Source: Winogradskyella sp. PG-2 (GTDB lineage Bacteria; Bacteroidota; Bacteroidia; Flavobacteriales; Flavobacteriaceae). From it: 64,000 bases of DNA. The translations under genes and the position numbers were made by a program. This document shows positions 2-21,112 of this stretch, piece after piece (the first letter of the stretch is position 1; each line of letters opens with the position of its first letter). The stretch lies in the NCBI RefSeq assembly GCF_000828715.1, contig NZ_AP014583.1, forward strand, positions 418,501-482,500, read 5' to 3'. Below the pieces are notes generated by a model. That model was not told the origin of the DNA, made no database searches, and was given only the letters and a program-made list of their open reading frames with translations.

Positions 2-1612
2 GAGGCTTTTAGCTCTGATTTTAAATTTTGCAGGAAAGATTCTGAAGATTTCATTAAGAAAATAGCTTCTGATATTGAATTAGAAAAAACTACGCTTTCT
101 AGGCTTAAAGAAAATGGAGAAATAGAAAAGCTAAAAAAAATTGCTAAATCTAGAAAAAAATATATACGAAAAGTTTATCCTTATATTCTATTAAATGAAG
201 AAGCAACAGTCGAAAATATAAAAAATGCGTTAAAAAAAGTTATAGCAAAAGCAACAACTAATGACTACTTTATTTTCACATTTAGTGGTGTTTCAATAGA
301 ATCAGAATCAGGAAGAACCTATTTATTACCCTATGTTAATTCAAATATGACACCTGTTGGATTTGTTGAAGAACCAAAAACTACTAATAATTTATTTTCA
401 TTATTAGAACTAGCTAATTTAATGGATCAAATAGCCTCAAAAGATCAATATGTAATTTCTGAAGCAGGTATGGGAAAAACATTTGGTCAGAACTTAATGT
501 TTCGTTTATTCGAATCAAATCCAGAAATTATAGCAGGTACAGATAGAAATAGAATTATTATAACTACTAATGGCCCTGGTTATGATGGTGGAGATTGTGA
601 TAATAGACAAGTTGAGAATGGGAAACTTTTTGATTTCATTATAAACATGCCTAAAAGTCATCAAATTATAACTAATTATAAACGATTTCAATCTAATCTA
701 TATAATACTGAGGAAGAATGTAATTCAACACGCATACCTGATTATGTTAAAATTTATAATGAGGCTGATTATAGAGATATGTTATTGAGGTATAATCAAG
801 ATTCAAATTCTAGAGGATCAAAGGGTACAAATGCAAAAAAAGATGAAGATTCTAAAAATGAAAAGCCTTCTCAAACTTATGCATTTATAATTGCTTCTAA
901 TAACTATAATAATCAACAAAAGAATTGGGCAAACCTTAAAAACCCAATCAATGATGCTGAAAGTTTTTCTAAAGTTCTAGAAGAAAAATATAATACTAAA
1001 ACTAAAAAAGCTTATAACAAGAATATGGAAGAAATCTTAAAAAGTTTTAATGAATTTAGAAAACAGATTCGAGAAAACGATAAACTCATATTTTTCATTG
1101 CAGGTCATGGCTATTATAGTGAGCTTCTTTCCGATGGTTATTTAGTTTTCAAGGATAGTAAATCATTAGATGAAGATTACGCATTAAAAAGTTATTTATC
1201 AATGGCCACAATGAATAGATTGTTATATGGTGTAAATGCGAAACAAGTTTTTTCAATATTTGATGTGTGCTATGGTGCCAATTTTGAATTAAATAATGCA
1301 GATCTATCTATAGAGAACTATTCTAATACAGAATTTGATAATGGTATTGCAAATTTCATTTCAGAAACTGACAAAAAAGTTTCAAGAATCGTTTTAGCTT
1401 CTGGGGAATATGAAGTCCCTGATTATTGGAGTAACTCTTTGAACCACTCCCCTTTTGCTGATAAACTCTTAAAAGCTTTCGAAAACGAAAAAGACTTCAT
1501 TTCACCTGGGAAAATCTATTCTTATGTGAGAGGTAATACAACCAAACCTATTTTAAAGAAGTTTGGAAAGCATGAACCAACAGGTGATTTTTTACTAAAG
1601 GTTTTAAATTAA
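2..1612 (+). CDS. Caspase-family protein with tandem pseudo-caspase and caspase domains (5' end outside window)
   Basis: The frame is open from base 2, so the gene starts left of the window; the first Met at 347 is internal. In the 536 visible residues, the first part (about 1-265) aligns by eye to a caspase fold but the His position reads F-S-G-V and the Cys position S-E-A-G-M, so it should be inactive. After a linker containing R-G-S-K comes a second caspase domain (about 290-536) with catalytic His in I-A-G-H-G (369) and Cys in F-D-V-C-Y-G (423). Peptidase family C14 is known for Arg/Lys or Asp cleavage. The pseudo-domain may regulate its active neighbour. It is followed after 6 bases by a CHAT gene, so it is probably co-transcribed. 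Whether it has a signal peptide cannot be seen. Confidence 0.85.
   Translation, partial: EAFSSDFKFCRKDSEDFIKKIASDIELEKTTLSRLKENGEIEKLKKIAKSRKKYIRKVYPYILLNEEATVENIKNALKKVIAKATTNDYFIFTFSGVSIESESGRTYLLPYVNSNMTPVGFVEEPKTTNNLFSLLELANLMDQIASKDQYVISEAGMGKTFGQNLMFRLFESNPEIIAGTDRNRIIITTNGPGYDGGDCDNRQVENGKLFDFIINMPKSHQIITNYKRFQSNLYNTEEECNSTRIPDYVKIYNEADYRDMLLRYNQDSNSRGSKGTNAKKDEDSKNEKPSQTYAFIIASNNYNNQQKNWANLKNPINDAESFSKVLEEKYNTKTKKAYNKNMEEILKSFNEFRKQIRENDKLIFFIAGHGYYSELLSDGYLVFKDSKSLDEDYALKSYLSMATMNRLLYGVNAKQVFSIFDVCYGANFELNNADLSIENYSNTEFDNGIANFISETDKKVSRIVLASGEYEVPDYWSNSLNHSPFADKLLKAFENEKDFISPGKIYSYVRGNTTKPILKKFGKHEPTGDFLLKVLN
812..823 (+). other. R-G-S-K motif, linker between pseudo-caspase and caspase domains
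   Basis: The codons AGA GGA TCA AAG encode R-G-S-K in a low-complexity linker (context N-S-R-G-S-K-G-T-N). A cut after Arg would separate the inactive first domain from the active second one. The cleavage role is inferred. Confidence 0.6.
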
Positions 1613-1618
1613 TGTACA

Positions 1619-2911
1619 GTGAAAAAAAGCATTTTATATATAATTATATGCTTTGTTACCTTACAAAGTTCATTAGCTCAAAATGATAAGGACTTAATTG
1701 AACTCCACAAAGAAAATCTTAAAGATCTATATAAGCAAAGAGGTGCTCCAGAAGAATGGGTAACCACTGGTAGAGTAAACGAAGATTATTTAAGCTGGTG
1801 CATAGACCATTACAAAAAGAAAACAGCTTTGTTAGTATATTCTTATGACAACGATTCTTTAAGAATAAATTTATTCGATCAAAGCGAAAAGAAACTAGAA
1901 TCATCAATTGCAGTTTCAAAAGAAACTCTAATCCAACAAATAAATAACAGTAATTTATTTTTCTCCAAAACAAATGGAGGTATTTCTCCGAAAATGAGAG
2001 GATCTTCTCCAATTTCAGTACCGAATAAGAAACTAAAAAGTAGTTATGAATATATCAATAAAACACTTTTTCCAGATGAATTTAAGCTAACTTCTTACGA
2101 GCACATCATCATAGTGCCAACTTTAAATATTTCAATACTACCTTTTTATGCACTCAAAATTAATGACGACTACATTATTGATTTAATGAGTTATTCTATA
2201 GCACCAAGTTTATTTGAGCTGATGGTTTCCAATAAGGTTAATCAGTCCGACTATTCGTCAAAAAAGGTGAGCTACAATTGGAACAATGCTCTCTTTGTAA
2301 GTAATCCAAAATTTCCTAATGATAGTATATGGGAATTTCCAAACTTACCAGGTGCGGAGAAAGAAGTAGTACAAATTACTTCAACCTTTAAACCTAATAG
2401 TTTTACAATTCTAAATAGAGAGGCAGCTACAAAGAAAAAAGTATTAGAATCTATTTGTGATTATGACCTACTCTACTTTGCTACACATGGAATTTCTAAT
2501 TCTGAAAACCCAATGGAAAGTAGTTTTTTAGTGTTAGCAGATTCAGAAAACTCTTCCTCTTATTTATCACTCAGCGAGATTATGAATGTGCGTTACGATT
2601 GTATGCTAAAGTCTGACCTCGTAGTTTTGAGTGCTTGTCAAACAGGACTTGGAAAGTCGCATGAAGGTGGTATTATTGGTCTTGCGCGTTCATTTCAAAT
2701 TGCAGGTGCAAACCACGTGTTAATGAGTTTATGGAATATTAGTGATAATGAAACAGCAACGTTAATGAAATTCTTCTTTAATGAATTAAAAATAGTTAAC
2801 GAATTGATGCCTCATGAAGCGCTTAGAAATGCTATTTTAAAATATAAAAATGAAGTAAATGATGATCCAAAATATTGGGCGGCATTCTCAATTTTTGGTG
2901 TTCCATATTAA
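1619..2911 (+). CDS. Secreted CHAT-domain peptidase without TPR repeats
   Basis: A 430-residue protein starting at GTG, 6 bases after the preceding stop. Residues 1-20 form a clear signal peptide ending S-S-L-A-Q. The rest is essentially one CHAT domain (caspase HetF associated with TPRs): P-F-Y-A-L strand near 175, catalytic His in F-A-T-H-G (290), Cys in L-S-A-C-Q-T-G (340), and the conserved tail motif Y-W-A-A-F near 420-423. Most CHAT proteins carry long TPR arrays in front; this one has only about 100 residues before the CHAT core. It carries R-G-S-S at 127-130, where the two other CHAT proteins have R-G-S-K. Export to the periplasm is inferred from the signal peptide. It is part of a tight operon with the neighbouring peptidase genes. 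Confidence 0.88.
   Translation: MKKSILYIIICFVTLQSSLAQNDKDLIELHKENLKDLYKQRGAPEEWVTTGRVNEDYLSWCIDHYKKKTALLVYSYDNDSLRINLFDQSEKKLESSIAVSKETLIQQINNSNLFFSKTNGGISPKMRGSSPISVPNKKLKSSYEYINKTLFPDEFKLTSYEHIIIVPTLNISILPFYALKINDDYIIDLMSYSIAPSLFELMVSNKVNQSDYSSKKVSYNWNNALFVSNPKFPNDSIWEFPNLPGAEKEVVQITSTFKPNSFTILNREAATKKKVLESICDYDLLYFATHGISNSENPMESSFLVLADSENSSSYLSLSEIMNVRYDCMLKSDLVVLSACQTGLGKSHEGGIIGLARSFQIAGANHVLMSLWNISDNETATLMKFFFNELKIVNELMPHEALRNAILKYKNEVNDDPKYWAAFSIFGVPY
1997..2008 (+). other. R-G-S-S variant of the shared motif in the first CHAT protein
   Basis: The codons AGA GGA TCT TCT encode R-G-S-S in the loop before the CHAT core helix, the same place as R-G-S-K in the two downstream CHAT proteins. 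The fourth residue is Ser in place of Lys. Confidence 0.45.
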
Positions 2912-2922
2912 AATAAAATGCT

Positions 2923-4989
2923 ATGAGACAGCTTTACTTCTTAATATTTCTTTTATTCACTAGTATAAGTTCTGCCCAATCCAAAGAGGTACTTCAGCAA
3001 CAATTTGACCAACAAATAGCAGAAACAACGCAATTAGCTAAAAATGGTCAACTACAAGAAGCTATTAAAAAATGAGAACTCGCAAAGACCTTTGCTTTTG
3101 AGAATTTTAAGGATTCCAACAGAAATCAGCAAAACATTTTAAATAAGCTTAATTTTTATTATAGATTTTTAAATGACTATAAAAACGAATTGGGAACGAA
3201 TATTGAGCTTTCAAAAATTAGAAATGCGGATTTAAAAAAAGAACAAGAAACCTATACCAATTCCTTTAAGGAACTCTCCGAATATTATCTCAGTTTTGAA
3301 AATCCCAGAGCAATTATTCCAATGTTCAAAAGTGTTAATAAAAACCTCTTAAGCGATACTGAACAGGCCTTTCAATACCGTTTTGAAAACGAACGTGCTA
3401 CATTTCTTCAGAATAACATTCTGCCGTTTATAAATTTATTTCAATCATTTGCTTACAAGACCAATTATAGATATAAAAGCTTTAACCATATAATTACTAA
3501 TAATGCCTTAGTGGCAAAAGGTGTCTTATTAAATTCTTCAAAGGATATTTTAAAAAATCTTGAAAGCTTAAATGATGACGTCATAAATAAAAAAATAATA
3601 GAGTACAGAGACGTAAAAGATTTTACAACTTTTCAGCTAAGTCTTAATGAAAAAGACCGAAGCGAACAGCTAGTAACAATGCAAGGTCGCTTAATAGGTT
3701 TAGAGTCTGAGCTGGTATTATATCACAAAAGACATTTTCTTGAAGACTTCACCTTAAAACGCGAATGGAGACGCACTCAACTTAAAGAAAATGAAGTTGC
3801 CATTGAGTTTGTACGGTTTAATTATTTTAATAAGAAGTGGACGGATAGTACCTTTTATGTCGCTCATATCATAAAAAAGAACCCTAACTCTTCGCTTGAA
3901 GTCATCCCGTTATTTGAAGAAGAGGAACTTCAAAATATTATAAAAGGTACTTCATCAAATAAAATGAATGATTCGAGAGGTTCAAAGGCACGCAGAATCA
4001 ACAAAATAACTACAGAAGGCTTATATAATCTCATCATTAAACCTCTGGAAGAAAATCTCAATGGAGTTAAGACAATTTATTTATCACCAGATGGTATATT
4101 ACACCAAATTGCTTTTGCAGCTTTAGCAAATTCTGAAGGTAAATTACTAACAGAACGTTTTAATCTTGTTCAGGTTAATAGCTCTACCTCCATTAAAAGA
4201 GTTACTAAAGAACCAAGAACTAAAACTGCACTTTTTATTGGTGGTATCGATTACAGCTATAATGCAGATGGAAAGCCAATAGCGAAACAATCTGCATTAC
4301 CAGAACTCAGAGTTAGAAATAGTAACAGAGGAGAAAATGAAAATTGGCCATATGTGAAAGGTACCAAAGACGAAATAGAAAATTTGACCACCCTTTTTAA
4401 TTCAAAAGGAAAAACATCAAATTATTTAACGAATAAGACTGCTAATGAAAAGGCTATAAAAAACTTAAGTGGAGATAGTCCAAATATTCTACATATAGCT
4501 ACGCATGGTTTCTTCTATGAAAATTCTTCTGATAGCAATAAAGTTAAATCCAATGAATATAAAAGCTCTACCAATCCTCTAGTCCGCTCCGGATTGTTAT
4601 TTGCAGGTGCTAACTATGCCTGGCAAAATGGTAATAATCCTTATGAAAAAGAAGATGGCATACTTACTGCATTAGAAATATCAAACCTAGACTTGTCAAA
4701 TACAGATTTAGTAGTACTCAGTGCTTGCGAAACAGGTCTGGGAGATATAAAAGGTAATGAAGGCGTATATGGTTTACAACGAGCTTTTAAAATGGCTGGT
4801 GCAAATATGATACTAATGAGTCTTTGGGAAGTACCAGATATTGAAACAGCTGAATTTATGACGAGTTTTTATGAGTTATGGCTAGAGAATAATGCGATTC
4901 GGCAAGAATTTATTGAAACACAGAGAAAAATGCATAAATTATATCCAAACAACCCAGATAAATGGGCTGCTTTTGTATTGTATGAATAA
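2923..4989 (+). pseudogene. Secreted CHAT peptidase gene interrupted by an in-frame TGA at 3073
   Basis: ATG at 2923 begins a good signal peptide (M-R-Q-L-Y-F-L-I-F, ending S-S-A-Q), but codon 51 is TGA at 3073-3075. The same frame then continues open to 4989 with a complete CHAT domain. Counting from 2923, catalytic His is in I-A-T-H-G (528) and Cys in L-S-A-C-E-T-G (601). TGG to TGA is a likely single change (context K-K-stop-E-L-A-K would read W). The region before the CHAT core is helical and short. The C-terminal 450 residues closely resemble the next gene, so the two are tandem paralogues. Restart at TTG 3190 would lose the signal peptide. Alternatives are a sequencing error or very recent inactivation, since no other lesion is seen. 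Confidence 0.82.
3976..3987 (+). other. R-G-S-K motif in the second CHAT protein
   Basis: The codons AGA GGT TCA AAG encode R-G-S-K (context N-D-S-R-G-S-K-A-R-R) in the loop just before the helix L-Y-N-L-I-I-K-P-L that opens the CHAT core. Confidence 0.6.
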
Positions 4990-4994
4990 AAAAT

Positions 4995-7900
4995 ATGAAA
5001 CACAACTTAACTATTCTCTTATTGCTTTCCCTTTTTATTGGGACAAGTCAAAACACAGATGATTACAACAAATGGTCTCAAAATTTTCAAAATGGCTCAT
5101 CGTATTATAGCCTGGAATCTTTTAGTCAGGCAGAAGATGAGTTTGAAAAAGCATATAATCTAGCCAAAAAATTATTTGAAACAAACTCTGAGGAATTTAT
5201 CAATACAGCTTATTCTTATGCTATTGTACTTGTTCAAGCTGAAAAGAATAATGACGCAAGAGAACCCATGGAAAAAGCTATAATTGGCATTAAGAGTCTA
5301 TATGGAGAAAAAAGTGAACCCTATGGAACCGCCCTAACAATTTTAGCTAATATATATGTAAGTATAAAATCATATAAGTTAGCGAAAGATATATACCTGG
5401 AGTCTAATGAAATTATAAAAACTGCATATGGTGAAAATCATTATTTGTATGGAATCGCTTTAACCAATCTTGCAGGATTTTATAGAGAGATTGAAGATTA
5501 CAAAAATGCTTTAAATAAACTAAACAAAGGACTTGTAATATTAAAAGACAATCCTGATTTCGATCAACAGTACTATAACAACTTAAGATACAACAATCTT
5601 CCCGGAATTTATCAAGGTCTGGGCAGGTTAGAAGATGCACTCATAATAGAAAAAGAAAGTCTGAACTTCATAAAATTAAATTATGGAAAAAACACCTCTA
5701 ATTATGCAAATATTCTCACTAGTATTGGAGGTTTGCACATTAATTTAGGTAATTTTAATAAGGCCGAAAAAGTGTTAGAAGAAGCCGCCTCAATTTTTGA
5801 GTATTTAGATAATTATGAAGATGAAGAAGCATTAGGTAATGTATATTTATTTCTAGTCGCTTGTTACTCTCAAACGTCAGATTTTAAAAAAGCATTCCTC
5901 TATGCTAGTGAAGGCATACGATTAACCAAATTAGAATCTTCTAACCCTCCTTCAAATGCATTAAATTATTACGAAATTTTAGGAAGTTTAGCTTGGAATC
6001 TTGGAACTTATGATATAGCCCGAGACTATATTCTAAAAGTAATTGATGGAACCATTGCATCTATAGGCCAAAATGCACCCCAATTACCTGTTTTAAAGTC
6101 TCAACTAGGAATATGCTATATGTACTTGAATGAAAGTGATAAAGCAGAGCAATTAATTATAGAAGCCTTTGAAACAGTAAAAAAATCGAATTATTCTATA
6201 AAAGATAAAGAGTATCGTGAATGTTTAGATAACCTAAGTACTATTTTAATAGATCAAAAAAAATACAGGGAAGCTATTAAGAACTTATCTACAACTCTAA
6301 AACGAGAAGATAAATCGCATCCTGCATATTGGCTAAAACTATCCGATTTAGCAAATGTGTATTTGTTGAATAATCAATGTAACAAAGCATTAAAATTATT
6401 TGAAGAAGCTTTAAGTGGTATTAAACAATTTTATGGTAAAAATGACTCAAACTATATTAATGCATTGAATAAATATATTTCTGCAAAGGCTTGCCAAAAA
6501 AAATATGGAGCAATACTAAATGATATTAATGAAGCAGATCAATTAACTAAAAATCAAATTCAAAATAGATTCAGTTTTAGCAATGAAGGTTTAAAACGAA
6601 TTTTTTTAACCCAATTAGAACATTCATTTGATATTTATGAATCAGTAAATGTAGATTATCAAAACACTGAACTAACAATCCTAAATTTAGAAAACCAGTA
6701 TTTATTAAAAGGGCTTCTATTAAATCAATCAAAAATCATTACAAGTAAATTAAAAGAATTAAATGATGAAGCTATAAACTCAAAGGTTGATACATATATT
6801 AATAATAAGCAATTACTAAATAGATTGGAGGATAAAAAAGAATTTCCCAATGATAAAGACTTAGATGAATTGAAATCCGATATAAGTGCTGCAGAGATAG
6901 AATTAGTTCAACTTTATAACGATAGTTTCAAAAAACCTATAAAATTTAATAAAAGTTGGAAAAAAGTTCAAAACAAATTAAAAGGTAACGAAGTTGCTAT
7001 AGAATTTTCGAGATTCAATTATATCAATAATGCTGAATCAGATAGTATATATTATTTAGCATATATCGTAATGAAAAACTATAATAATCCAATTGTTATT
7101 CAACTTTTTGAAGAAAAACAATTAGGTAAAATATTAAAATCTTCAAAGTATCCGAACCAATTATATTTATCAAGAGGGTCTAAAGCTTCAATTGTTGGTA
7201 ACAAAATAGATTCTAAAGCCCTTTATAACTTAATCTGGAAACCTATAGAGCAATATTTAAAAGGCATTAATACAATTTATTTTTCTCCAGCCGGACTTCT
7301 ACATAATATTTCTTTTGCATCTATAAAGAGTGAAGGCCATTTTCTTATTAGAGGTTATAACTTAAATCAATTGAGTAGTACCTACGAAATAGTTGATGAT
7401 TTCGAACAACCCTCGTTTGACAACATTTTAATTATGGGAGGAATTGAATATGACTACCAAGAGAGTCTAAGTGACCAAAAAGAGAACTATAAATACCCTA
7501 AAGATTTTATAGGCTTAGAAACTAAACGAAGTGAAGAAAACAAATGGAACTATTTACCAGGAACATTAAAGGAAATTAACAATCTTAATGAGTTATTATC
7601 CAATTATAATAAAACCATAACTATTTTAAAAGGTTATGATGCCAAGGAATCTATATTTAAACAATTAGGTGCCAGTAGTCCTAATATATTACATATAGCA
7701 ACGCATGGTTTTTTCTATGAAAATGAACATAAAGATATTATTAATATTTCTGGCAAAAACAGTAAATTTAAAGTTGCTGACAATCCTTTAAAACGTTCAG
7801 GTATACTATTGAGTGGTGCTAATTATGCATGGCTTAACGGCAATAATCCTAATGAAATAGATAACGGTATTCTAACTGCTGAAGAAATTTCAAACTTAGA

Positions 7901-8198
7901 TTTGTCTAATACGGATATGGTTGTTTTATCTGCATGTGAAACTGGACTTGGAGATATTGATGGTAGCGAAGGAGTCTATGGTTTACAACGTGCTTTTAAA
8001 ATGGCTGGAGTAGACATAATAGTGATGAGTCTTTGGGAAGTACCAGATAAAGAAACAGCTGAATTTATGTACTCTTTTTACTCCAATTGGCTTGAAGGTA
8101 TGAAAGTTCGAGAAGCCTTTATTACAACACAGAGAACCTTATCGAATAAATACGTTGATAACCCAGAAAAATGGGCTGCTTTTGTATTGTTTGAATAA
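4995..8198 (+). CDS. Secreted TPR-CHAT peptidase
   Basis: A 1067-residue protein starting 5 bases after the previous stop. Signal peptide at 1-19 (M-K-H-N-L-T-I-L-L-L-L-S-L). Residues 25-540 are tetratricopeptide repeats (Y-G-x-A-L-x-x-L-A-x-x-Y patterns), followed by a helical linker and a CHAT domain with His in I-A-T-H-G (904) and Cys in L-S-A-C-E-T-G (981), ending K-W-A-A-F-V-L-F-E. TPR-CHAT proteins are caspase-like peptidases controlled by their TPR scaffold; the Csx29 subunit of type III-E CRISPR is one example. This one is predicted to be exported and has no CRISPR genes nearby. R-G-S-K at 727-730 lies between the TPR half and the peptidase core. A cut there would free a core of about 340 residues. 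Confidence 0.9.
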   Translation: MKHNLTILLLLSLFIGTSQNTDDYNKWSQNFQNGSSYYSLESFSQAEDEFEKAYNLAKKLFETNSEEFINTAYSYAIVLVQAEKNNDAREPMEKAIIGIKSLYGEKSEPYGTALTILANIYVSIKSYKLAKDIYLESNEIIKTAYGENHYLYGIALTNLAGFYREIEDYKNALNKLNKGLVILKDNPDFDQQYYNNLRYNNLPGIYQGLGRLEDALIIEKESLNFIKLNYGKNTSNYANILTSIGGLHINLGNFNKAEKVLEEAASIFEYLDNYEDEEALGNVYLFLVACYSQTSDFKKAFLYASEGIRLTKLESSNPPSNALNYYEILGSLAWNLGTYDIARDYILKVIDGTIASIGQNAPQLPVLKSQLGICYMYLNESDKAEQLIIEAFETVKKSNYSIKDKEYRECLDNLSTILIDQKKYREAIKNLSTTLKREDKSHPAYWLKLSDLANVYLLNNQCNKALKLFEEALSGIKQFYGKNDSNYINALNKYISAKACQKKYGAILNDINEADQLTKNQIQNRFSFSNEGLKRIFLTQLEHSFDIYESVNVDYQNTELTILNLENQYLLKGLLLNQSKIITSKLKELNDEAINSKVDTYINNKQLLNRLEDKKEFPNDKDLDELKSDISAAEIELVQLYNDSFKKPIKFNKSWKKVQNKLKGNEVAIEFSRFNYINNAESDSIYYLAYIVMKNYNNPIVIQLFEEKQLGKILKSSKYPNQLYLSRGSKASIVGNKIDSKALYNLIWKPIEQYLKGINTIYFSPAGLLHNISFASIKSEGHFLIRGYNLNQLSSTYEIVDDFEQPSFDNILIMGGIEYDYQESLSDQKENYKYPKDFIGLETKRSEENKWNYLPGTLKEINNLNELLSNYNKTITILKGYDAKESIFKQLGASSPNILHIATHGFFYENEHKDIINISGKNSKFKVADNPLKRSGILLSGANYAWLNGNNPNEIDNGILTAEEISNLDLSNTDMVVLSACETGLGDIDGSEGVYGLQRAFKMAGVDIIVMSLWEVPDKETAEFMYSFYSNWLEGMKVREAFITTQRTLSNKYVDNPEKWAAFVLFE
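7173..7184 (+). other. R-G-S-K motif in the third CHAT protein
   Basis: The codons AGA GGG TCT AAA encode R-G-S-K (context Y-L-S-R-G-S-K-A-S-I), located before L-Y-N-L-I-W-K-P-I. This matches the position in the paralogue upstream, although the surrounding residues differ. Confidence 0.6.
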
Positions 8199-8232
8199 AC
8201 TTAAAAAAGTAAAACCTAGAAAATTCGTAATT

Positions 8233-8260
8233 TGCTAATATCTATTTTAGATATTTAGCA
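8233..8260. repeat. Imperfect inverted repeat in the gap before the caspase-TPR gene
   Basis: Arms TGCTAATATCTA and TAGATATTTAGCA (one extra T in the right arm) enclose a TTT loop, in the 79-base gap between the CHAT operon and the next gene, 18 bases before its ATG. It could be an operator or an mRNA hairpin. It lacks a T-run, so it is a poor terminator. Confidence 0.4.
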
Positions 8261-8277
8261 TAATACCAAATCATATT

Positions 8278-11265
8278 ATGAAACAATTACTACTATCACT
8301 ATGCATTTTGTTTTCGTGTATTTCGTATGCCCAGAACGGAGCTCGAGGCTCTAAAGCAAAGGCAACTGAGACAAATAATGATGGTACAAAACGAGCACTG
8401 ATAATAGGTGTTTCAGATTATAACGAGAAAGAACTTCAATTAAATTACGCAGATAATGATGCGATTCTTTTTAACAATTACCTGAGCAAAGTAGAAGGTC
8501 TAACAGATGAAAACATCTCTTTATTAATAAACCAAGATGCAGTGTCTCTTAATATCCTCAAGGAGTTTAAATCATTACTTAAAAAGACATCATCTGGCGA
8601 TATTATATACATCTATTTTGCTGGGCATGGTGACGTTATTGATGATTTTGGTGAAAAAGAAGGATTTCTTTTAGCATCAGATGCAAATGCTAATCAAGAG
8701 TATTATTCCGGAGGTACAATTCCTTTTTCTCTACTAGAAAAAATCTTAAACAGTTTTATATCCAAGGAATCTAAAGTCATTCTTATTTTAGATGCTTGTC
8801 AATCTGGTTTCCCATTTAAAGGAACTTCACAGAAAAACATGGGCACCATACAAGCTATGTTTCAAAATTCAACTCGATTTTTGAGTTGTGGTTCAGAAGA
8901 GCTTTCCTATGAAAGTAGTGACTTAAAGCATGGCTATTTTACATACTATTTGGTTAAAGGTCTTACAGGAAAAGCGGATAAAGATGCTAACGCTACTTTA
9001 ACATACAATGAAGTTGATGATTATTTATATGAAAATGTTACTGATATTGTATTAAAAGAGCATAAAGGGAAACAATCACCTGTAATGCACACCGAAAACA
9101 AAAGAGCTATTTTAAAAGCCATAACTGCAGCATCTAACACCATCGTTTTTGAAGATATTAATGTAAATATTGAAAGTGACAAACGTATTGCAGCTAGAGG
9201 TATAAGTGATACTGATTTAAAGGATAAAACTGGCGGTTCTGAGATTCAGAAATTTAATGAAGCTATAAATAGAAAATCATATTACGGGAAATCTTCTAGT
9301 GCTTATGAAATTTATAAATCTATAAGTAACAACCCAACTATTGATGTAAGATTAAAGGAAAAAATGAACAGTACTTTATTAAAGATTCTATCTAATAGTG
9401 CACAAAAACTCATAAATGCTTATATCGATGGGAATAAGATATTACCTCCAAGTAGGGCATTTAAAATTCAGGCAAAACATTTAGAGATTTGTTTAGAATT
9501 GATGGGTGAAGATGGCTTTCTTAAAGACAGAGTTGAGGCAAGCAAATTATTGTTAGAGTCTTATGTAATTATTAGAAACAGAAACTACGCACGATACAAA
9601 GCGGCTAAGTTAATGCTTAAAAACGCATTACAATTAGAACCTAGGGCTGCTTATATTCATAATGCTTTGGGTGAAGTTTACAACAATGAAGAGCAATACG
9701 ATAGTGCGCATTATCATTATAATAAGGCTAAAAAATTGATTTATTCTTGGTCTAAACCCGTGACAAATATTGGTGACAATTTAATGGACCAGTATAAGTA
9801 TGACGATGCAAAAACATACCTAAACACTACGCTTGGTACTAAAGGCGCAAATGCCAACCTTAAATTAGGAGAAATAAGTGAAAAAGAAGGTAAATACAGC
9901 GAAGCAGAATCTTTTTACATGGCAGTTTTAAAAACTGAGCCTAAAAATGTGAAAGCGCTTCAAAAGATGAGCAATCTTCAAAAATTAAAAGGAAACAGCA
10001 AATCTTCTATAGATTGGTATAAAAAGGCAGTAAAAACAGATTCTATAAATTCAGTATTTGGATATGGATTAATTAACTATATAGAAGACAACAAAATTGA
10101 TGATGCCAAAGCTGAAAAACTTTTACTAAATGCCATTGATTATGCGCCAGAGTCTTCAATTGTATATTCAGAATATGCTGATTTCCTTAGGCTAAAAAAA
10201 TCAAAATTATCCCGTTTACGTTTAGCAGATTCATTGTATGGAAAAGCCATACAAAATGACCCTTTTAATACATGGGCTTATGCTGGTCGTGGTAGCTTAC
10301 AAAACAAAATGAGGAAACCTTTAAAAGCAAAACAATCTTTTGAATCTGGTATTGCAAAAAATCGTAATAAACCAGAACCTTATTTTTATTACGCCAACTA
10401 TAATAATCAATTAAATAAGATTAGTGAAGCTGAAGTATTATACTTAAAGGCTATTGAAAAGAACAACTATTTCATTCCTGCATATGATAAATTAGTTAGC
10501 CTTTATAATAATCAAAATCTTCAAGAAAAATCTATTAATTTACTTCATACGGCAATAGCTAATCATCCTAACACCCCAGATTTTAATCATTTGTTAGGTC
10601 AAACCTATTTTTCAAAAAAGAATTTCACTGAAGCCATTAAAGCGTACAAATCTGCTACAAAAATTGATGCTTCGTTTGTGAAAAGTTCGAAAAATCTTGG
10701 TTATAGTCAGATAGAAACTGATGATATTAATTCTGCGGAACAAAATTTAAAAACTGCTTCAGACAGTGATGCCTTTGGAGATCGACAAAAAGAAATCTCA
10801 GCTTATATACGTACAATGGCTAAAGATAAATTAAAATTCGGCAAGTCGTCTGATGCTAAAGCTTTATACAAATTGGCTTTTGAAATTTCAAATTCTGCTG
10901 AGAATGCTCACATTTATTCAGAATTCTTGTATTTACAATCTCAACCTATAAAAGCATTAGAAATAGCTTTACCATCTTTAAGTAAACTCAATTCCAAATC
11001 ACATAACATACAGCTTTTAGAAGTTATGGTAAAAGCAGCAATTGATGCTAATGCATTAGAAAATGCTAATTATTACTATACTAATTTGATTAAACTAGAT
11101 AAAAATCCAGATATGCTTTTAGCATCAGTCTATGCAAGGTTTATTGGAGATATTACTAGTAGTGAAAATTACAGAAGACGTGTTGATCAGAATCTTTTAC
11201 GTTCTAATAAACTTAAAACTTTTTATAGCACAGAGACTATAAATAAATATATCCTTAACAACTAA
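8278..11265 (+). CDS. Secreted caspase-TPR protein
   Basis: A 995-residue protein with a signal peptide (1-19, ending S-Y-A-Q) directly followed by R-G-S-K at 23-26. A caspase domain occupies about 37-280: first strand R-A-L-I-I-G-V-S-D-Y, catalytic His in F-A-G-H-G-D (117), Cys in L-D-A-C-Q-S-G (174), and the substrate-loop-like segment L-S-C-G-S-E-E-L-S. From about 330 to the end are TPR-type helical repeats, for example A-A-Y-I-H-N-A-L-G-E-V-Y-N-N. Domain order is the reverse of the CHAT proteins: peptidase first, scaffold second. It is separated by 79 bases from the operon upstream, so it may have its own promoter. It ends exactly against the convergent gene's stop codon. The function is a predicted periplasmic Arg/Lys-type peptidase; partners and trigger are unknown. 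Confidence 0.9.
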   Translation: MKQLLLSLCILFSCISYAQNGARGSKAKATETNNDGTKRALIIGVSDYNEKELQLNYADNDAILFNNYLSKVEGLTDENISLLINQDAVSLNILKEFKSLLKKTSSGDIIYIYFAGHGDVIDDFGEKEGFLLASDANANQEYYSGGTIPFSLLEKILNSFISKESKVILILDACQSGFPFKGTSQKNMGTIQAMFQNSTRFLSCGSEELSYESSDLKHGYFTYYLVKGLTGKADKDANATLTYNEVDDYLYENVTDIVLKEHKGKQSPVMHTENKRAILKAITAASNTIVFEDINVNIESDKRIAARGISDTDLKDKTGGSEIQKFNEAINRKSYYGKSSSAYEIYKSISNNPTIDVRLKEKMNSTLLKILSNSAQKLINAYIDGNKILPPSRAFKIQAKHLEICLELMGEDGFLKDRVEASKLLLESYVIIRNRNYARYKAAKLMLKNALQLEPRAAYIHNALGEVYNNEEQYDSAHYHYNKAKKLIYSWSKPVTNIGDNLMDQYKYDDAKTYLNTTLGTKGANANLKLGEISEKEGKYSEAESFYMAVLKTEPKNVKALQKMSNLQKLKGNSKSSIDWYKKAVKTDSINSVFGYGLINYIEDNKIDDAKAEKLLLNAIDYAPESSIVYSEYADFLRLKKSKLSRLRLADSLYGKAIQNDPFNTWAYAGRGSLQNKMRKPLKAKQSFESGIAKNRNKPEPYFYYANYNNQLNKISEAEVLYLKAIEKNNYFIPAYDKLVSLYNNQNLQEKSINLLHTAIANHPNTPDFNHLLGQTYFSKKNFTEAIKAYKSATKIDASFVKSSKNLGYSQIETDDINSAEQNLKTASDSDAFGDRQKEISAYIRTMAKDKLKFGKSSDAKALYKLAFEISNSAENAHIYSEFLYLQSQPIKALEIALPSLSKLNSKSHNIQLLEVMVKAAIDANALENANYYYTNLIKLDKNPDMLLASVYARFIGDITSSENYRRRVDQNLLRSNKLKTFYSTETINKYILNN
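8344..8355 (+). other. R-G-S-K motif at the predicted mature N-terminus of caspase-TPR
   Basis: The codons CGA GGC TCT AAA encode R-G-S-K three residues after the predicted signal peptidase site (context N-G-A-R-G-S-K-A-K). A cut here would remove only a few residues, so here the motif might act as a new N-terminus or a docking sequence. Confidence 0.55.
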
Positions 11266-14200
11266 TTACCACATTTTAAGTTGAGACTTGGCATTTAATT
11301 CTCTTAAATCAGGAGTCTGCTTTCCATTAGTTAAAAGCATAACTCGCTTTAATAATTCTGAAATCGTGTCATCTGTTAATTGTAAAGATTTCTTTAAATC
11401 TTTTTCGTTCAGTAAAAAGCCCGAAGAGCTTAATCTCCCTTTTAATGTTTTTATATAAGCACTTGTAAATGCCCCATTTCCTAAGGTCTTATTTTCATAA
11501 GCGACATCCTCTCCAGAGGAAGCAGAAATAACGGTGATACCACTTTTAGATAAAAAATCTTCAAACAAATCTGATATAACATCAGATACTTTAAACTCTG
11601 ACTTAGAATTAACACGTCTAGATTTTGAACCACGTTGATTTGGTTTATTTATATTCTGTTCTGAAATTACTGTTTTAGTATCGATATCTAAAGTATTACC
11701 TGAATGACAAGAATCCATTAATAGCATAATATTATTGGAATTAGCTTTTTTTAGATTCTCAATAATTGTATTAAATGAAACCCCTTTTTGCTTCACATCA
11801 TTAAATACCATATCGTGTGGAGCAAAATAATAATTGAGATCTTCATCTAAAACTCCATGACCTGCTAAGAAAACAATAACTTGATCATTAGGCTTTACGT
11901 TCTTAAAAAACCCATTGAGCTCCTTTTTTATATTCTCTGAGGTAGCTTCTGCATTCGTTAAATACTTTATTCTCGTTTTTTTAAATGATGCTGGCTTATT
12001 ATATGCTAAAAGACTATCTCTTTTAAAGTAATCTTCTTTTACTAATGGATCAGAAGATCTAATCCAGAATAGGTCGTTGTTATATCCTGAAAACCCTTTT
12101 ACATTAATATCAAAACTATCACTTCTAACTAATTTTCCATCTAAATTATAAGTTAAGATTTCGCGTTCAGAACTGTTTAATGAAGTTCTATATATTGATA
12201 ATTGTGAAGCATCGTTAGAGATATAAACCATATCATATTTATCAAAATTACTTAGATTCAATTTTAAAGGTACTACAGGAGATGTATTTAAATCTACATA
12301 AAATAAATCGCTATCAAAGCTACTATATAGCATATGCCTACCGTTTGCGGATAAGGCTTTTAAGCTAGGTAAATAAATATTTGCAGAGTCTTTCTGTCTT
12401 TTTCCACTTTCATTAAGAGACTCAAAATTATCGAGGCTAAATTTTATTTTTCCGTCAATTTCTTTTTTATCTGTTTCACCAAAAACAATTTCAACATAAT
12501 TATCTAAACCTTCTGTTTTATAAGAAAAATAAGCCCATTTATTATCTATTACTGGTTTTAATGCACTTCTTGAAATTGAGGCATAATCATCAAAAGGTAA
12601 ATTGATTACTGAGAATTTTTTGCTGGAAAATTTATATTGATAAAAAACATCATCATCAGAAATGATATAAAACCCTGTACCATCTGGGTGAATAGAAATA
12701 GCGTTATTATAACTTAAAGTTTCCATTATAAAACCCTTAGGCATTGTTATTGGTTCTATCGTACCTGTTTTATAATTCCATAGATTATACTTTCCATAAT
12801 CGTGTTCTAACCAAAGTGTACGTTCTTCGTTTAATGCATATAAATCACCTGTTATTGTATACAGTCCTCCATATCTTTTTAATTCATTAACAACTTCACC
12901 AGAATTAGCCTCTAAACTATATCTACTACCAAAGAATTTTTTATTGTACGCATACTCATCATCTTTGCTTAGACTTCCATAAATTCGAGAAATATCTAAG
13001 GCATCTTTATCTGCAAATGTGAGATTATAATCTGTTTGCAGATAGTCAGACACACCTACAGATAATAAAAATAAATCACCTTTTTCACTGCTTAAAGTGC
13101 TTTCATTATCTATATTAACCTCTGTATTATCAAATTGATTTTTTTGTTTTAATGCGAGAGCTTTTTTTAACGTAGATATATACTCCTTGTTTGGCATACC
13201 AAAAGATTTAAGTACTTCTTCTGGTTTAAAAAAACGCTCTTCAAAATCTTTTACAGGAGAACTCTTTCCATTTAATGACGCAAGAACAAATTCATCTGGA
13301 TTAACATTACTGAAATAATTATTATTACTATCCACAAATACATGACTAGATTTGTCTGGATGTAACATTTCTGCAAGTAGTTTTAAGCCTTTAGTTTGAT
13401 AAATTTTAATTTTACCATTATTAAAACTCGCCATCAATTTTGAACCATCTGAATTTAGAGATACCCTTGTTGGAAACTCTGAAGATGGAAATTTATACAG
13501 CTTATCACCTATTGTTAAACCTAGATACTCTATACTCAATACCGTAATATTTTCAACTGAATCAAAATCTAATACATTTAGACATTCTGTCTTCTGACTT
13601 GTCACCTTATGGTTTGAATCCATAGAGAAACCAATTGAATTTGTATTACACTTTTCTTTATCAATTTTCCAAAAGGCATTAGAAACTAAGAACTCATTAG
13701 ATTGATCTGAAAATATCTTATACTTTCCATCAATAAGCGTTTCGGAATGTAAAATTTTCATGGTCTCAACCAATCGAATAGATACCTCATTTAAATTTGA
13801 AATTAAAAGGACATATTGACCATCTTCAGAAAATTTCCCAAATTTATACAAGCCCTCTATATTAATAATATCATCATTTTTTAAAAGAGCAAACTCTTGA
13901 GGTTCTGTATGACCACCATTGTAATAAGGTCTTTGACTTAAAAGTAAGGTCCGCTTAACTGAATTATAATCTACAACATTACGTTTATTTGTTTCTAAAT
14001 TACTTATAAGTTGTACTTTATCTTTCATTAAGTCATAAGCATAAAAACCATAATCAGCTTCAAACTCTGATCTATTTTTTGAGCCATAAAATGGATGTAT
14101 ACTCGTATATTTATTAAAATCAAATTCTTTGTTAGAAAAATCTTTTATACCAAATTTAGTCTCCATTAAATTATTATAATCTAGCTTACCAAAACGATTA

Positions 14201-15420
14201 TAAAATGTTCCAGATTCGTAATACTTTAATTGATATTCTTGTTGTCCAATACCGAAATTCCCAGTACTTATTTCGCTTCCTATAACAATCCAACTATCAT
14301 TCGGTAAAAATGATCCATGATAATAAGGCTTGACCTCCTTTGGTATTGTTTTTACAATTTTTTCAGTTTCATTATCAAAAACTTTAAACCTTATATAACT
14401 CGAAAAATTTGGGTTAAAAGACTCAAAAAAGAGATGTTCATTTTTATCCTCTAAATAAACTGATGTAGTGACTCCATCATTAGCATTAGGTCTTTGGTCT
14501 TTATAAATATTTCCATTTTTTTTGATGATAAGTGGTTTAGTGCTAAAACCATACTTTTCTGTAATGACGAGTTGTAGTATTTCATTTTTATGCGATATAT
14601 CAACATTTATTGACGCATTAAAATCAATTGCAACTTTATGCACTGGCTTAGTAAAGTCTTTTACTTTAGATAAGTTATAAATCTCAATTATTTTAGCTTC
14701 TTTGTTTTTTGATAATACATATAAGTCATCAGCATGGTAAAAGAGTTTAATAATTTCTAGAGATTCAGGAATGTCTATATTTAATTTTTTCTTGTAATCA
14801 TTCTTATACAAAAACAAAATATTAAGCTGGGTTAAACCTCTTTTTTGAACCATTACAATTTCACCCGAAACCAGATTATAAGCAGCTTTATCAATACTAT
14901 TAGAAGCATAAAATCGCGTTATTTTCTCAAAATTCTTATCATAAACATCTATGATATTTAAGCTCTTGTCAGCATTTGTATCTCTAATCAAAATAGCATC
15001 ATCTTGACTTCCAACAAATTCAATGTTAGCTGCATTTTGCATCAATACTTTTTGGTCGAAAACACTGATACTAAATATTGAATCAGTTTTACCATCGCTA
15101 AAATTAAATTTTTGATTAATGGTTAAAACCCTATCGTCATTGGTTAATCGCATACTCTTTACAGGTATACCAGATGCTGGTCTCAATGTCTTTACTACCC
15201 GTTTTGATTCTGTACTGTAAGCTAAAATTTTACCAGACTCATCGGCTGTAAAGAAATATGGATATTTTTTTGAAGCGACAGTAGTTGTAATACTTGCAGA
15301 ATGATAATCTCGTAATGTAATTTTCACTTCATCTTGTTGCCCGAAACTAAACGTATAGACACAACATAATACTAAGCAAAGTAAAATATTTTTCAAGCTT
15401 GAATTATTTACAAATTCCAT
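11266..15420 (-). CDS. Secreted beta-propeller/caspase protein with a propeller segment nested in the caspase fold
   Basis: I chose ATG at 15420 because it begins M-E-F-V-N-N with a proper signal peptide (ending F-S-F-G-Q); the first ATG at 15456 adds 12 residues and lengthens the overlap. Numbering from 15456, residues 45-730 are WD40/propeller-like strands. The first caspase strand and helix appear at 793-830 (F-L-L-S-V-G-V-S-D-Y, A-D-K-D-A). About 320 residues of further propeller-like repeats follow. The fold then resumes at 1160 (R-I-K-Y-L-T-N-A-E-A-T) with catalytic His in L-A-G-H-G (1200) and Cys in D-S-C-H-S-G (1250). R-G-S-K is at 1275-1278, in the loop after the catalytic Cys. It is the last gene of a four-gene operon; its start overlaps the FecR-like gene by 17 bases. 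Confidence 0.87.
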   Translation of the reverse strand: MEFVNNSSLKNILLCLVLCCVYTFSFGQQDEVKITLRDYHSASITTTVASKKYPYFFTADESGKILAYSTESKRVVKTLRPASGIPVKSMRLTNDDRVLTINQKFNFSDGKTDSIFSISVFDQKVLMQNAANIEFVGSQDDAILIRDTNADKSLNIIDVYDKNFEKITRFYASNSIDKAAYNLVSGEIVMVQKRGLTQLNILFLYKNDYKKKLNIDIPESLEIIKLFYHADDLYVLSKNKEAKIIEIYNLSKVKDFTKPVHKVAIDFNASINVDISHKNEILQLVITEKYGFSTKPLIIKKNGNIYKDQRPNANDGVTTSVYLEDKNEHLFFESFNPNFSSYIRFKVFDNETEKIVKTIPKEVKPYYHGSFLPNDSWIVIGSEISTGNFGIGQQEYQLKYYESGTFYNRFGKLDYNNLMETKFGIKDFSNKEFDFNKYTSIHPFYGSKNRSEFEADYGFYAYDLMKDKVQLISNLETNKRNVVDYNSVKRTLLLSQRPYYNGGHTEPQEFALLKNDDIINIEGLYKFGKFSEDGQYVLLISNLNEVSIRLVETMKILHSETLIDGKYKIFSDQSNEFLVSNAFWKIDKEKCNTNSIGFSMDSNHKVTSQKTECLNVLDFDSVENITVLSIEYLGLTIGDKLYKFPSSEFPTRVSLNSDGSKLMASFNNGKIKIYQTKGLKLLAEMLHPDKSSHVFVDSNNNYFSNVNPDEFVLASLNGKSSPVKDFEERFFKPEEVLKSFGMPNKEYISTLKKALALKQKNQFDNTEVNIDNESTLSSEKGDLFLLSVGVSDYLQTDYNLTFADKDALDISRIYGSLSKDDEYAYNKKFFGSRYSLEANSGEVVNELKRYGGLYTITGDLYALNEERTLWLEHDYGKYNLWNYKTGTIEPITMPKGFIMETLSYNNAISIHPDGTGFYIISDDDVFYQYKFSSKKFSVINLPFDDYASISRSALKPVIDNKWAYFSYKTEGLDNYVEIVFGETDKKEIDGKIKFSLDNFESLNESGKRQKDSANIYLPSLKALSANGRHMLYSSFDSDLFYVDLNTSPVVPLKLNLSNFDKYDMVYISNDASQLSIYRTSLNSSEREILTYNLDGKLVRSDSFDINVKGFSGYNNDLFWIRSSDPLVKEDYFKRDSLLAYNKPASFKKTRIKYLTNAEATSENIKKELNGFFKNVKPNDQVIVFLAGHGVLDEDLNYYFAPHDMVFNDVKQKGVSFNTIIENLKKANSNNIMLLMDSCHSGNTLDIDTKTVISEQNINKPNQRGSKSRRVNSKSEFKVSDVISDLFEDFLSKSGITVISASSGEDVAYENKTLGNGAFTSAYIKTLKGRLSSSGFLLNEKDLKKSLQLTDDTISELLKRVMLLTNGKQTPDLRELNAKSQLKMW
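11623..11634 (-). other. R-G-S-K motif in the caspase inter-subunit loop
   Basis: The minus-strand codons CGT GGT TCA AAA encode R-G-S-K about 25 residues after the catalytic Cys (context P-N-Q-R-G-S-K-S-R-R). This is where caspases and metacaspases are known to be cut between large and small subunits. Confidence 0.65.
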
Positions 15421-16180
15421 AAGTTTCACAAAGTGAATTTTCAATTTCAGATTCATTAAAGCCCAAAGTCTTTAAATCATTAATTAAGTCTTTATAACTC
15501 GTTTTTATTGACTCATACTCTACTCTATCAATTAATGTGAATGAATAAAACGGAATATTCTTAAGATTAGGAAACTCAGATATAGAAACTGACCATTGAA
15601 AACTAACTCCTTGGGAAAAAATAGAATGATCTTTATATAATGATAACTCACTTCCGTTTGTAGCAAACTTAAAAATCTCCTCAGTTTCTATATTTTTGAT
15701 AAAAAGATAGTATTGAGGCGTGTCTTTATCTGTAGTCCATTTAAAGGTTAATTTAGAACTTGCTAGCATAGTACTATCAATTGGAGATTGCATTAATAAA
15801 TCACCTCTAAATACTCCCCCTATAATAGTCTTACCTGAATTTTTTTTAAGTAATTCGTCCCAAATAAGCTTAAAGTATTTAGACGTTAAACCCTTAGCAT
15901 TTTTTAGAACATTATGTTCTAAAATCTTATTATAGTTATACTCTCCAGATTTACTGATTTGAAAGGCCTCCCCTTTAGAATTAATTGCAGTTATTTTAGT
16001 AGACTCATTAACTAACAATGAAGATTTTTCGTTTATATAAGTGCCTTTTGTCAAGGGCTTAAGCGTATTTGCAATTTTACCGTACGCACTTCCTTTAAGT
16101 TTAAAGACACAAAGACTATCTTGAGCACTTAATGCGATAGTAAAACTAAATAACAGTATTATAACAAATGACTTTCCCAT
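15404..16180 (-). CDS. Secreted FecR/DUF928-like protein of the caspase cluster
   Basis: A 258-residue protein with a signal peptide (1-19, ending A-L-S-A-Q). Residues 30-85 resemble the FecR-type beta domain (G-x-Y-I-N-E-K-S-S-L-L-V-N followed by a strand-rich segment). The middle (130-230) is an Ig-like, strand-rich region with aromatic residues. I do not recognise a firm family. In cyanobacteria, DUF928 and FecR-type proteins often neighbour CHAT and CHASE2 genes, which is why I group it so. It overlaps the CHASE2 gene by 22 bases and the caspase gene by 17, so translation is probably coupled. A likely role is a periplasmic adaptor or sensor, which is inference. Confidence 0.65.
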   Translation of the reverse strand: MGKSFVIILLFSFTIALSAQDSLCVFKLKGSAYGKIANTLKPLTKGTYINEKSSLLVNESTKITAINSKGEAFQISKSGEYNYNKILEHNVLKNAKGLTSKYFKLIWDELLKKNSGKTIIGGVFRGDLLMQSPIDSTMLASSKLTFKWTTDKDTPQYYLFIKNIETEEIFKFATNGSELSLYKDHSIFSQGVSFQWSVSISEFPNLKNIPFYSFTLIDRVEYESIKTSYKDLINDLKTLGFNESEIENSLCETYGICK

Positions 16181-19207: not shown

Positions 19208-19212
19208 TAACT

Positions 19213-19225
19213 TTTGTAACACAAA
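19213..19225. promoter_or_regulatory. Predicted Crp/Fnr operator, site 1
   Basis: TTTGTAACACAAA has 5-bp inverted arms (TTTGT/ACAAA) around AAC. It differs at one base from the sequence at 21090-21102. It lies just upstream of a -7 element, which is compatible with activation of the transporter operon. Confidence 0.5.
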
Positions 19226-19241
19226 CTAAAATGTATAATTA

Positions 19242-19249
19242 TATTTTTG
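19242..19249 (+). promoter_or_regulatory. -7 element before the YeeE/YedE operon
   Basis: TATTTTTG fits TAnnTTTG, 15 bases before the chosen ATG at 19265. The TTG at 19247, which would add six residues, falls within this element and was rejected as a start. Confidence 0.4.
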
Positions 19250-19264
19250 CATCAAATTAAATCT

Positions 19265-19822: not shown

Positions 19823-19823
19823 T

Positions 19824-21044: not shown

Positions 21045-21085
21045 AGCTTTATGATAAATATCACATTTCAAAAAATGAAGTTTTG

Positions 21086-21102
21086 TAACTTTGTAATACA
21101 AA
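21086..21102 (+). promoter_or_regulatory. -7 element overlapping predicted Crp/Fnr operator, site 2
   Basis: TAACTTTG (21086-21093) fits TAnnTTTG exactly. TTTGTAATACAAA (21090-21102), a perfect palindrome, overlaps it and lies 10 bases before the ATG. Binding at this place would be expected to block transcription, unlike site 1. Confidence 0.5.
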
Positions 21103-21112
21103 AGAATTAAGA

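Follow-up and report, generated by a model that had tools for sequence, protein, structure and literature searches.

A conserved Arg-Gly dipeptide in caspase-fold proteases and neighboring proteins of a Winogradskyella gene cluster, a probable processing site

The recurrence of an Arg-Gly dipeptide (R-G) in the proteins of one gene cluster of Winogradskyella sp. PG-2 suggests that exported caspase-fold proteases share a processing site with each other and with proteins encoded beside them. The window, the whole stretch of DNA that was analyzed, has a length of 64,000 nucleotides (G000:C1:418501-482500), and the cluster begins about 7 kb upstream of it, in stretch L043. The cluster encodes four peptidases of family C14 (C14a to C14d), CHAT proteases, a trypsin-fold protease, and proteins that are not proteases. 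The probability that R-G is the common processing site of an exported network around the four C14 enzymes, the CHATs, and the trypsin-fold protease, with the non-protease proteins as clients, is put at roughly 0.6.

Results

R-G is the top conserved dipeptide of the cluster families when dipeptides are ranked by z-score. Ten families with at least six aligned sequences each were used, and adjacent column pairs conserved in at least 75% of rows were counted and compared with 2,000 column shuffles within 30-residue blocks. C14b (two rows) and CHAT1 (three rows) were left out, and CHAT2 was merged into CHAT3. There are 14 conserved R-G pairs against 3.04 expected (z 6.75; 0 of 2,000 shuffles), followed by I-E with 11 against 2.74. 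The R-G columns are at residue 23 of C14c, 40 and 126 of a lipoprotein (LIPO), 1275 of C14d, 727 of CHAT3, 174, 179, 607, and 632 of C14a, 132 and 236 of a secreted protein (UNK475), 41 of the trypsin-fold protease with ankyrin repeats (TrypAnk), 125 of a FecR-like protein, and 335 of a DUF900 hydrolase. Apart from the TrypAnk, FecR-like, and DUF900 columns, the remaining 11 were judged by reading to lie in linkers, loops, or tails. Five shared non-cluster families from the loci of relatives, a small and weak control, have one conserved R-G against 1.86 expected.

The motif that drew attention to the cluster is also strongly enriched within it. A preliminary description of this DNA had reported R-G-S-K in five caspase-fold peptidases and R-G-S-S in a sixth. 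All six motifs are in frame in long open reading frames at the positions listed in Table 1, they have six distinct 12-base codings, and no further R-G-S-K occurs within the window in frames of at least 100 codons. The proposed placements (a linker at 812, a loop ahead of the CHAT core, the mature N-terminus at 8344, and an inter-subunit loop at 11623) are consistent with the domain limits given by Pfam. The control consisted of 393 mechanically called genes of the same genome (132,213 residues), of which 159 are signal-peptide-like. The 13 cluster proteins (8,179 residues) have ten RGS and five RGSK, while the control genes have ten and one. Against length-matched signal-peptide-like proteins of the same genome, RGS[KS] is found seven times where 5,000 draws gave a mean of 0.16 and a maximum of 4. 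For RG[SAGT] the count is 15 and the resampling mean 3.85, and none of 5,000 draws was as high. The dipeptide test carries more weight than this last comparison because the RG[SAGT] class was picked after inspection of the data.

Selection acts on the protein sequence, as R-G is kept across homologous families. Homologues were gathered by protein searches, from 27 named loci, and from further genomes, and signal peptides were assigned by eye or by a simple pattern, without a predictor. For C14d, TPR-CHAT, LIPO, UNK475, and the FecR-like family, near-identical rows were removed with a 4-mer filter, and matches covering no more than 50-60% of the reference were excluded. Among 119 C14c proteins (the PG-2 protein included; P0120 and 29 further matches of 149 were left out), the part ahead of the C14 domain has RG in 102, KG in five distant homologues, and neither in nine, with three unparsed. 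For comparison, residues 5-45 of 144 signal-peptide-like proteins contain RG[SAGT] in one and any RG in eight. In the 120 listed LIPO homologues of 224, R40 and R126 are present in all 120, G41 in 119, and G127 in 118; the flanks are highly variable around 126 and less so around 40, and C16 and R40 are invariant in 31 aligned sequences. C14a has R179-G180 in 12/12 rows and R174 in 12/12, with G following in ten. Its R-G at 607 and 632 are present in 11/12 rows, the twelfth ending at a contig edge. When 14 full-length C14a genes were compared (one per genome; seven from loci already used), all 14 had R-G in the linker and all 14 near the C-terminus. R-G is found in all 17 C14d rows aligned over most of their length, and a first C14d list had RG[SA] in the C-terminal part of 12/13, P0132 lacking it. 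It is also present in 12/12 aligned TPR-CHAT rows, in 3/3 CHAT1 sequences, in UNK475 at 132 (8/9 rows, the ninth incomplete there) and 236 (9/9), ahead of the protease domain in 7/7 trypsin-fold proteins, and at about residue 147 in 4/5 secreted DUF900 proteins. A DUF900 homologue without an evident signal peptide has no R-G, and CHASE2 has no conserved R-G in 16 rows. Persistence in orthologous clusters, which the preliminary description had made the test of its idea, thus holds largely (C14c, C14d, TPR-CHAT, and CHAT1), with exceptions.

What is conserved is the dipeptide R-G, and it extends to proteins other than caspase-fold peptidases. The alignments keep R-G only, so that R-G-S-K as a conserved unit was rejected; the K is not conserved, and TrypAnk, the DUF900 hydrolase, LIPO, and UNK475 are carriers of other kinds. 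Recent DNA duplication was rightly excluded at the outset, but the five copies are not all independent. Those of CHAT2 and CHAT3 occupy the same aligned column, in which two further CHAT genes of the PG-2 genome have R-G as well, and were therefore inherited within one family.

Structural models place the sites of two proteins in segments that are likely flexible. In the AlphaFold2 model of C14a (mean predicted local distance difference test score, pLDDT, 72), all five R-G are within segments below 50 (168-205 and 607-644), and both R-G of LIPO (mean 67.5) are in such segments too (Table 1). The models are modest, and the low scores point to likely rather than certain flexibility.

C14a is the likeliest cutting enzyme, because it is metacaspase-like and is found in all 15 searched LIPO-bearing genomes (14 directly, G540 through locus L065). 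The catalytic His and Cys are present in each of the four C14 proteins. These and two Asp residues at positions matched to the metacaspase pocket are kept in 12/12 rows of C14a (H100, C167, D45, and D165), in 89/90 and 90/90 of C14c, and in 17/17 of C14d, and the PG-2 C14b sequence has the same pocket Asp pattern. C14a matches PF00656 with 65.3 bits (cut-off 21.4). Its best matches are metacaspases, namely Mca1, AtMCA4, and TbMCA2 by sequence and AtMCA9 and GSU0716 by fold (Foldseek). D45 and D165 align with positions of Mca1 that we take to be equivalent to D95 and D211 of TbMC2. The latter two residues are named in PMC8283722. Characterized C14 enzymes other than animal caspases prefer Arg or Lys at P1 owing to an acidic pocket (PMC5756287, PMC8283722). 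The pocket acids go with this specificity, and Arg or Lys at P1 is the expected preference of the C14 enzymes of the cluster, as predicted from their sequences.

LIPO and C14a occur together in other genomes as well. Among genomes of the family, LIPO is present in 5/199 (PG-2 included), all five of which have C14a, and C14a in 6/299; these counts are less independent than they look because of linkage and kinship. In Sphingobacterium, LIPO adjoins C14a. The two are the sole cluster genes in the 20 kb of L074, L075 has both and a C14d-like gene, and R-G is present in LIPO and C14a of both loci. The genomes of L074 and L075 have further C14 and CHAT genes elsewhere.

The upstream part of the cluster, in L043, encodes TrypAnk, the DUF900 alpha/beta hydrolase, UNK475, and C14a. 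The genome of L086 has the same order of trypsin-fold protease, DUF900, UNK475, C14a, C14b, and CHAT. TrypAnk (L043:12198-13733) has R-G at residue 41, about 70 residues ahead of its Pfam domain; a search with this N-terminal part gave no zymogen site. A trypsin-like specificity of TrypAnk was considered from its pocket Asp and dropped, as a glutamyl endopeptidase has the same aligned Asp. The R-G of DUF900 at residue 147 falls close to where the region shared with the homologue lacking an evident signal peptide (141-478) begins. UNK475 carries TRGSAS. C14a has R-G at residues 174, 179, 607, 614, and 632, and those at 607 and 632 flank a conserved stretch in which N618, P619, L620, E621, F623, and Y628 are invariant or nearly so in 13 sequences.

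In the window, C14b, CHAT1, CHAT2, CHAT3, and C14c follow each other on the plus strand, with C14d, the FecR-like gene, CHASE2, and LIPO on the other (Table 1).

Table 1. Cluster genes and R-G sites in the window
Feature	Position	Strand	Evidence or remark
C14b	2..1612 (gene start L043:18864)	+	C-terminal Peptidase_C14, PF00656 3.6e-21; N-terminal degenerate caspase-like stretch
C14b R-G-S-K, linker between the two parts	812..823	+	SRGSKG in the single orthologue found, L086_5
CHAT1, CHAT protease, signal-peptide-like start	1619..2911	+	PF12770 8.5e-53
CHAT1 second R-G (R-G-A-P), N-terminal part	1739..1750	+	3/3 CHAT1 sequences
CHAT1 R-G-S-S, upstream of CHAT core	1997..2008	+	R-G in 3/3 CHAT1 sequences
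CHAT2, CHAT paralogue	2923..4989	+	PF12770 9.1e-59; in-frame stop after signal-peptide region
CHAT2 R-G-S-K, upstream of CHAT core	3976..3987	+	Column shared with CHAT3
CHAT3, TPR-CHAT protease, signal-peptide-like start	4995..8198	+	PF12770 5e-55 and TPR families
CHAT3 R-G-S-K, upstream of CHAT core	7173..7184	+	R-G in 12/12 rows (reference and PG-2 CHAT2 counted)
C14c, Peptidase_C14 and TPR, signal-peptide-like start	8278..11265	+	PF00656 1.5e-17
C14c R-G-S-K, directly past likely signal peptide	8344..8355	+	RG in 102/119 proteins
C14d, weak beta-propeller matches, C-terminal Peptidase_C14	11266..15456	-	PF00656 9.4e-10, residues 1165-1384
C14d R-G-S-K, past catalytic Cys, p20/p10 linker	11623..11634	-	R-G in 17/17 aligned rows
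FecR-like protein (label by eye; no Pfam match)	15404..16180	-	Adjoins CHASE2 in relatives
FecR-like R-G-D-L, in fairly conserved stretch	15797..15808	-	R-G in 16/16 rows
CHASE2-domain membrane protein	16159..17325	-	PF05226 1.1e-18
LIPO, lipoprotein-type, Cys16, no Pfam family	17331..18230	-	Homologue search
LIPO R40-G41, 24 residues past Cys16	18108..18113	-	Homologues; low-confidence segment 39-65
LIPO R126-G127, variable loop	17850..17855	-	Homologues; low-confidence segment 126-130

Several of these proteins have further unusual features. The N-terminal C14-like stretch of C14b (L043:18864-20000) seems by eye to lack the dyad His, giving an apparent order of pseudo-caspase part, R-G linker, and intact part. 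The PG-2 copy of CHAT2 is probably not exported, because it has an in-frame stop at 3073-3075, seen against a 688-residue orthologue in L061. In C14d, Asp818 at the start of the caspase-like domain and His1200 are about 380 residues apart. The corresponding distance in C14a is 55, so C14d looks as though its protease had taken up a large domain; both residues are kept in 17/17 rows. The R-G of the FecR-like protein may be structural because its flanks are conserved too. Directly past R40, residues 42-64 of LIPO (GGLIE.ALQGLFFGA.YLAEK) are conserved and rich in small and hydrophobic side chains, and this stretch might act on membranes after its release. L047 (G000:C1:3746000-3755000) has one more TPR-CHAT gene with RGSK, which is split into two overlapping frames of 902 and 210 residues and is likely frame-shifted. 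C14 proteins outside the cluster (L121-L144 and L145-L157), many of which have no signal-peptide-like start, often carry R-G (SRGLR, TRGAAE) no more than 60 residues past the catalytic Cys, a possible general C14 processing site.

The cluster is adjoined by a block at 18572-22519 of the window with a Crp-type regulator, YeeE-like and TauE-like transporters, and an MBL-rhodanese protein (labels by eye). Much of this block also flanks the cluster in L056, L058, L061, L078, and L079. A Baltic Sea survey noted a link between metacaspases and sulfur in Bacteroidetes (PMC4933709).

Discussion

The conserved sites can be combined into a scheme of proteolytic processing outside the cytoplasm. From the sites, their conservation, their placement in loops of the two modeled proteins, the catalytic residues and pocket acids, and co-occurrence, we infer cleavage, the enzyme responsible, an order, and an activating outcome. 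The cut would fall after Arg, leaving Gly as the new N-terminus. C14a would be the enzyme that cuts, with R-G in its own p20/p10 linker and C-terminus. Prodomains or linkers would be split from the protease cores of C14b, C14c, the CHATs, and the trypsin-fold protease, while C14d and C14a would be nicked between subunits. LIPO would be released from its lipid anchor by a cut 24 residues past the lipidated-type Cys, and the hydrolase part of DUF900 would be split from the N-terminal part. The enzymes could thus switch on each other and partner proteins, and the stretch of C14a between 607 and 632 could be excised. A role in envelope stress or self-killing is plausible, considering the hydrolase and CHASE2 partners.

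A bolder form of this scheme is doubtful. It would give Bacteroidota an extracytoplasmic zymogen network resembling coagulation, in which secreted C14a cuts R-G in proteases and effectors, frees a membrane-active lipoprotein, and unleashes a lipase-like hydrolase. Within it, the C-terminal peptide of C14a (NPLExF...Y, with its twin R-G flanks) may be released as a signal or an inhibitor. The preliminary description had envisaged a shared cleavage site forming a cascade, with a docking tag as the alternative. The shared site is favored over the tag; a cascade of ordered events is hypothetical.

The choice between a processing site and a docking tag turns on how much is conserved around the dipeptide. 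If R-G were a docking site or pseudo-substrate, its Arg would enter the acidic pocket of a C14 or CHAT partner and hold or inhibit that partner without being cut. The same conservation and loop placement would be seen, and the presence of several partners within one cluster would be accounted for. Docking motifs usually keep more positions, however. Here conservation hardly extends past the dipeptide, and K can stand in for R, so a processing site is preferred. C14a, LIPO, and UNK475 each have between two and five R-G, which also argues against docking, and docking is considered unlikely. Cutting by a different Arg- or Lys-specific protease is quite unlikely as well. The trypsin-fold protein, another C14 or CHAT enzyme, or an unlinked outer-membrane or secreted protease would then be responsible, and C14a would merely be another client. 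TrypAnk, itself a cluster protein, shows an Asp ahead of the catalytic Ser at the position of that of a trypsin, and LIPO-bearing genomes do carry other C14 and CHAT genes. A glutamyl endopeptidase has this Asp too, however, so that it does not define the specificity of the trypsin-fold protein, and the trypsin-fold gene is absent from the 20-kb L074 and L075 (the whole genomes were not searched), where R-G is kept in LIPO and C14a.

Explanations that give R-G no common function fare worse. It is improbable that each family has the dipeptide by inheritance or as a structural turn: it is found in unrelated folds, mostly amid variable flanks, it exceeds all other dipeptides, and the C14a and LIPO sites have low predicted order. 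In favor of such an origin, CHAT2, CHAT3, and two other CHAT genes share theirs by descent, the FecR-like site and residue 335 of DUF900 are in conserved cores, and other C14 proteins of the phylum often have R-G in the linker. Chance occurrence of five R-G-S-K in an AT-rich genome has hardly any probability. RGSK does occur once in the 393 control genes, but the rates in the PG-2 genome and the conservation across genera speak against it, and chance and DNA duplication were both rejected as the origin on the distinct codings, the dipeptide shuffles, and the control-gene rates.

A number of observations weigh against a common processing site with C14a as its enzyme. Some concern C14 proteins in general. 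The phylum survey covered 30 loci and 20 regions, drawn from 145 C14 matches. Counted by hand, 26 of the 42 C14 proteins that could be parsed have R-G no more than 60 residues past the catalytic Cys; 18 of these 26 lack a signal-peptide-like start, and the L121-L144 group accounts for 16 of the 18. Several long C14 proteins from other classes likewise have R-G shortly past this Cys. Other groups have linker R-G in C14 proteins that are not secreted, so its presence in the linkers of C14a and C14d may reflect a trait of C14 proteins at large. Such a trait may be structural or serve processing, outside any code of the cluster; its frequency among C14 proteins fits self-processing by these enzymes generally. 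Type I metacaspases, however, are reported to lack self-processing between p20 and p10 (PMC5756287). The CHATs do not simply track C14a either. Fourteen loci were compared, of which L167, L170, L173, and L180 were unparsed and L169 does not span the R-G site. In C14a-positive genomes, R-G was found in five readable rows, four of them from PG-2 itself, and in C14a-negative genomes six of eight readable rows lack it (two in G129, one each in G039, G036, G146, and G141). However, two CHAT genes of PG-2, in L045 and L046, lack R-G in a C14a-positive genome, and G015, which has no C14a match, retains it in its two CHAT genes. G015 is an 84% complete metagenome-assembled genome whose contig breaks off within UNK475, ahead of the place expected for C14a.

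The remaining adverse observations concern single families. RG and KG are both missing from nine C14c homologues, of which three have 37% identity and the other six 26-30%, and a cut a few residues past the C14c signal peptide would have no obvious activating effect. Twenty C14d-like matches outside the alignment, a set that includes fragments and repeated genes, have linker R-G in nine cases, only RGxGA, an element that resembles part of the fold, in seven, and neither in four. One secreted DUF900 homologue (L084, G131) lacks R-G. The FecR-like site at 125 and the DUF900 site at 335 are in conserved cores, and the flanks of TrypAnk residue 41 are partly conserved. A search of G540 for the C14 family found no match, the C14a gene there being known from L065.

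To our knowledge, few natural substrates are known for bacterial caspase relatives. If R-G is a processing site, it would be a readable code for such substrates, with candidates named beforehand: the lipoprotein, the hydrolase, the trypsin-fold protease, and the CHATs. The exported caspase-fold network would be testable, and activation among multiple proteases would be placed outside the bacterial cytoplasm. Metacaspases and orthocaspases, lipoprotein maturation by gingipains, and CHAT/caspase systems are already known (PMC5756287, PMC7935541, PMC5954841, PMC8195603). In the literature searched, with its incomplete journal coverage, no description was found of the R-G site, of the cluster, or of a multi-protease activation network outside the bacterial cytoplasm.

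Some features of the cluster are shared with known protease systems. Like metacaspases and orthocaspases, C14a has the C14 fold, the His/Cys dyad, the pocket Asp residues, and the expected Arg/Lys preference at P1. Unlike them, it has a signal-peptide-like start, CHAT and trypsin-fold neighbors, and R-G in non-protease neighbors. Craspase (TPR-CHAT/Csx29) resembles the cluster in that CHAT and C14 proteases act on partner proteins, but the proteins described here have signal-peptide-like starts. Cascades from SAVED-CHAT to PCaspase are another case of CHAT and C14 proteases acting on partners. The Csx29 model gave 30.1 bits for CHAT1, far below its cut-off of 300 (CHAT2 was left out). In EACC1, caspase-like and trypsin-like proteases are proposed as activators in bacterial conflict systems, and the available part of that description, unlike the cluster, contains no R-G site (PMC8195603). 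The best score with the EACC1 caspase model NF047832 was 70.2 bits, below the cut-off of 140 (C14b was left out). Defense-system models run on 10 of the 13 cluster proteins gave a match to a generic caspase profile and, in the TPR part of C14c, a single weak one to PrimPol.

Other parallels for the proposed events are in exported systems. Arg-gingipain has a caspase-like fold. In Porphyromonas it cuts the fimbrial lipoprotein Mfa1 at Arg49, downstream of the lipidated Cys (PMC5954841). LIPO likewise has an Arg site downstream of a lipobox-type Cys. The gingipain system differs in that C14 and CHAT enzymes are present here and R-G recurs in the proteases themselves. The pilin or fimbrillin fold (type V pilin) was not found in LIPO, whose model (mean 67.5) had no match in the PDB at E<=0.001 and whose sequence had none in Pfam. 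Zymogen cascades of coagulation and complement have a common Arg activation site across exported proteases. The enzymes of the cluster differ from these in being mainly of the caspase fold and in belonging to a bacterium, and here too a conserved site of a cleavable type is present in several putative zymogens of one cluster.

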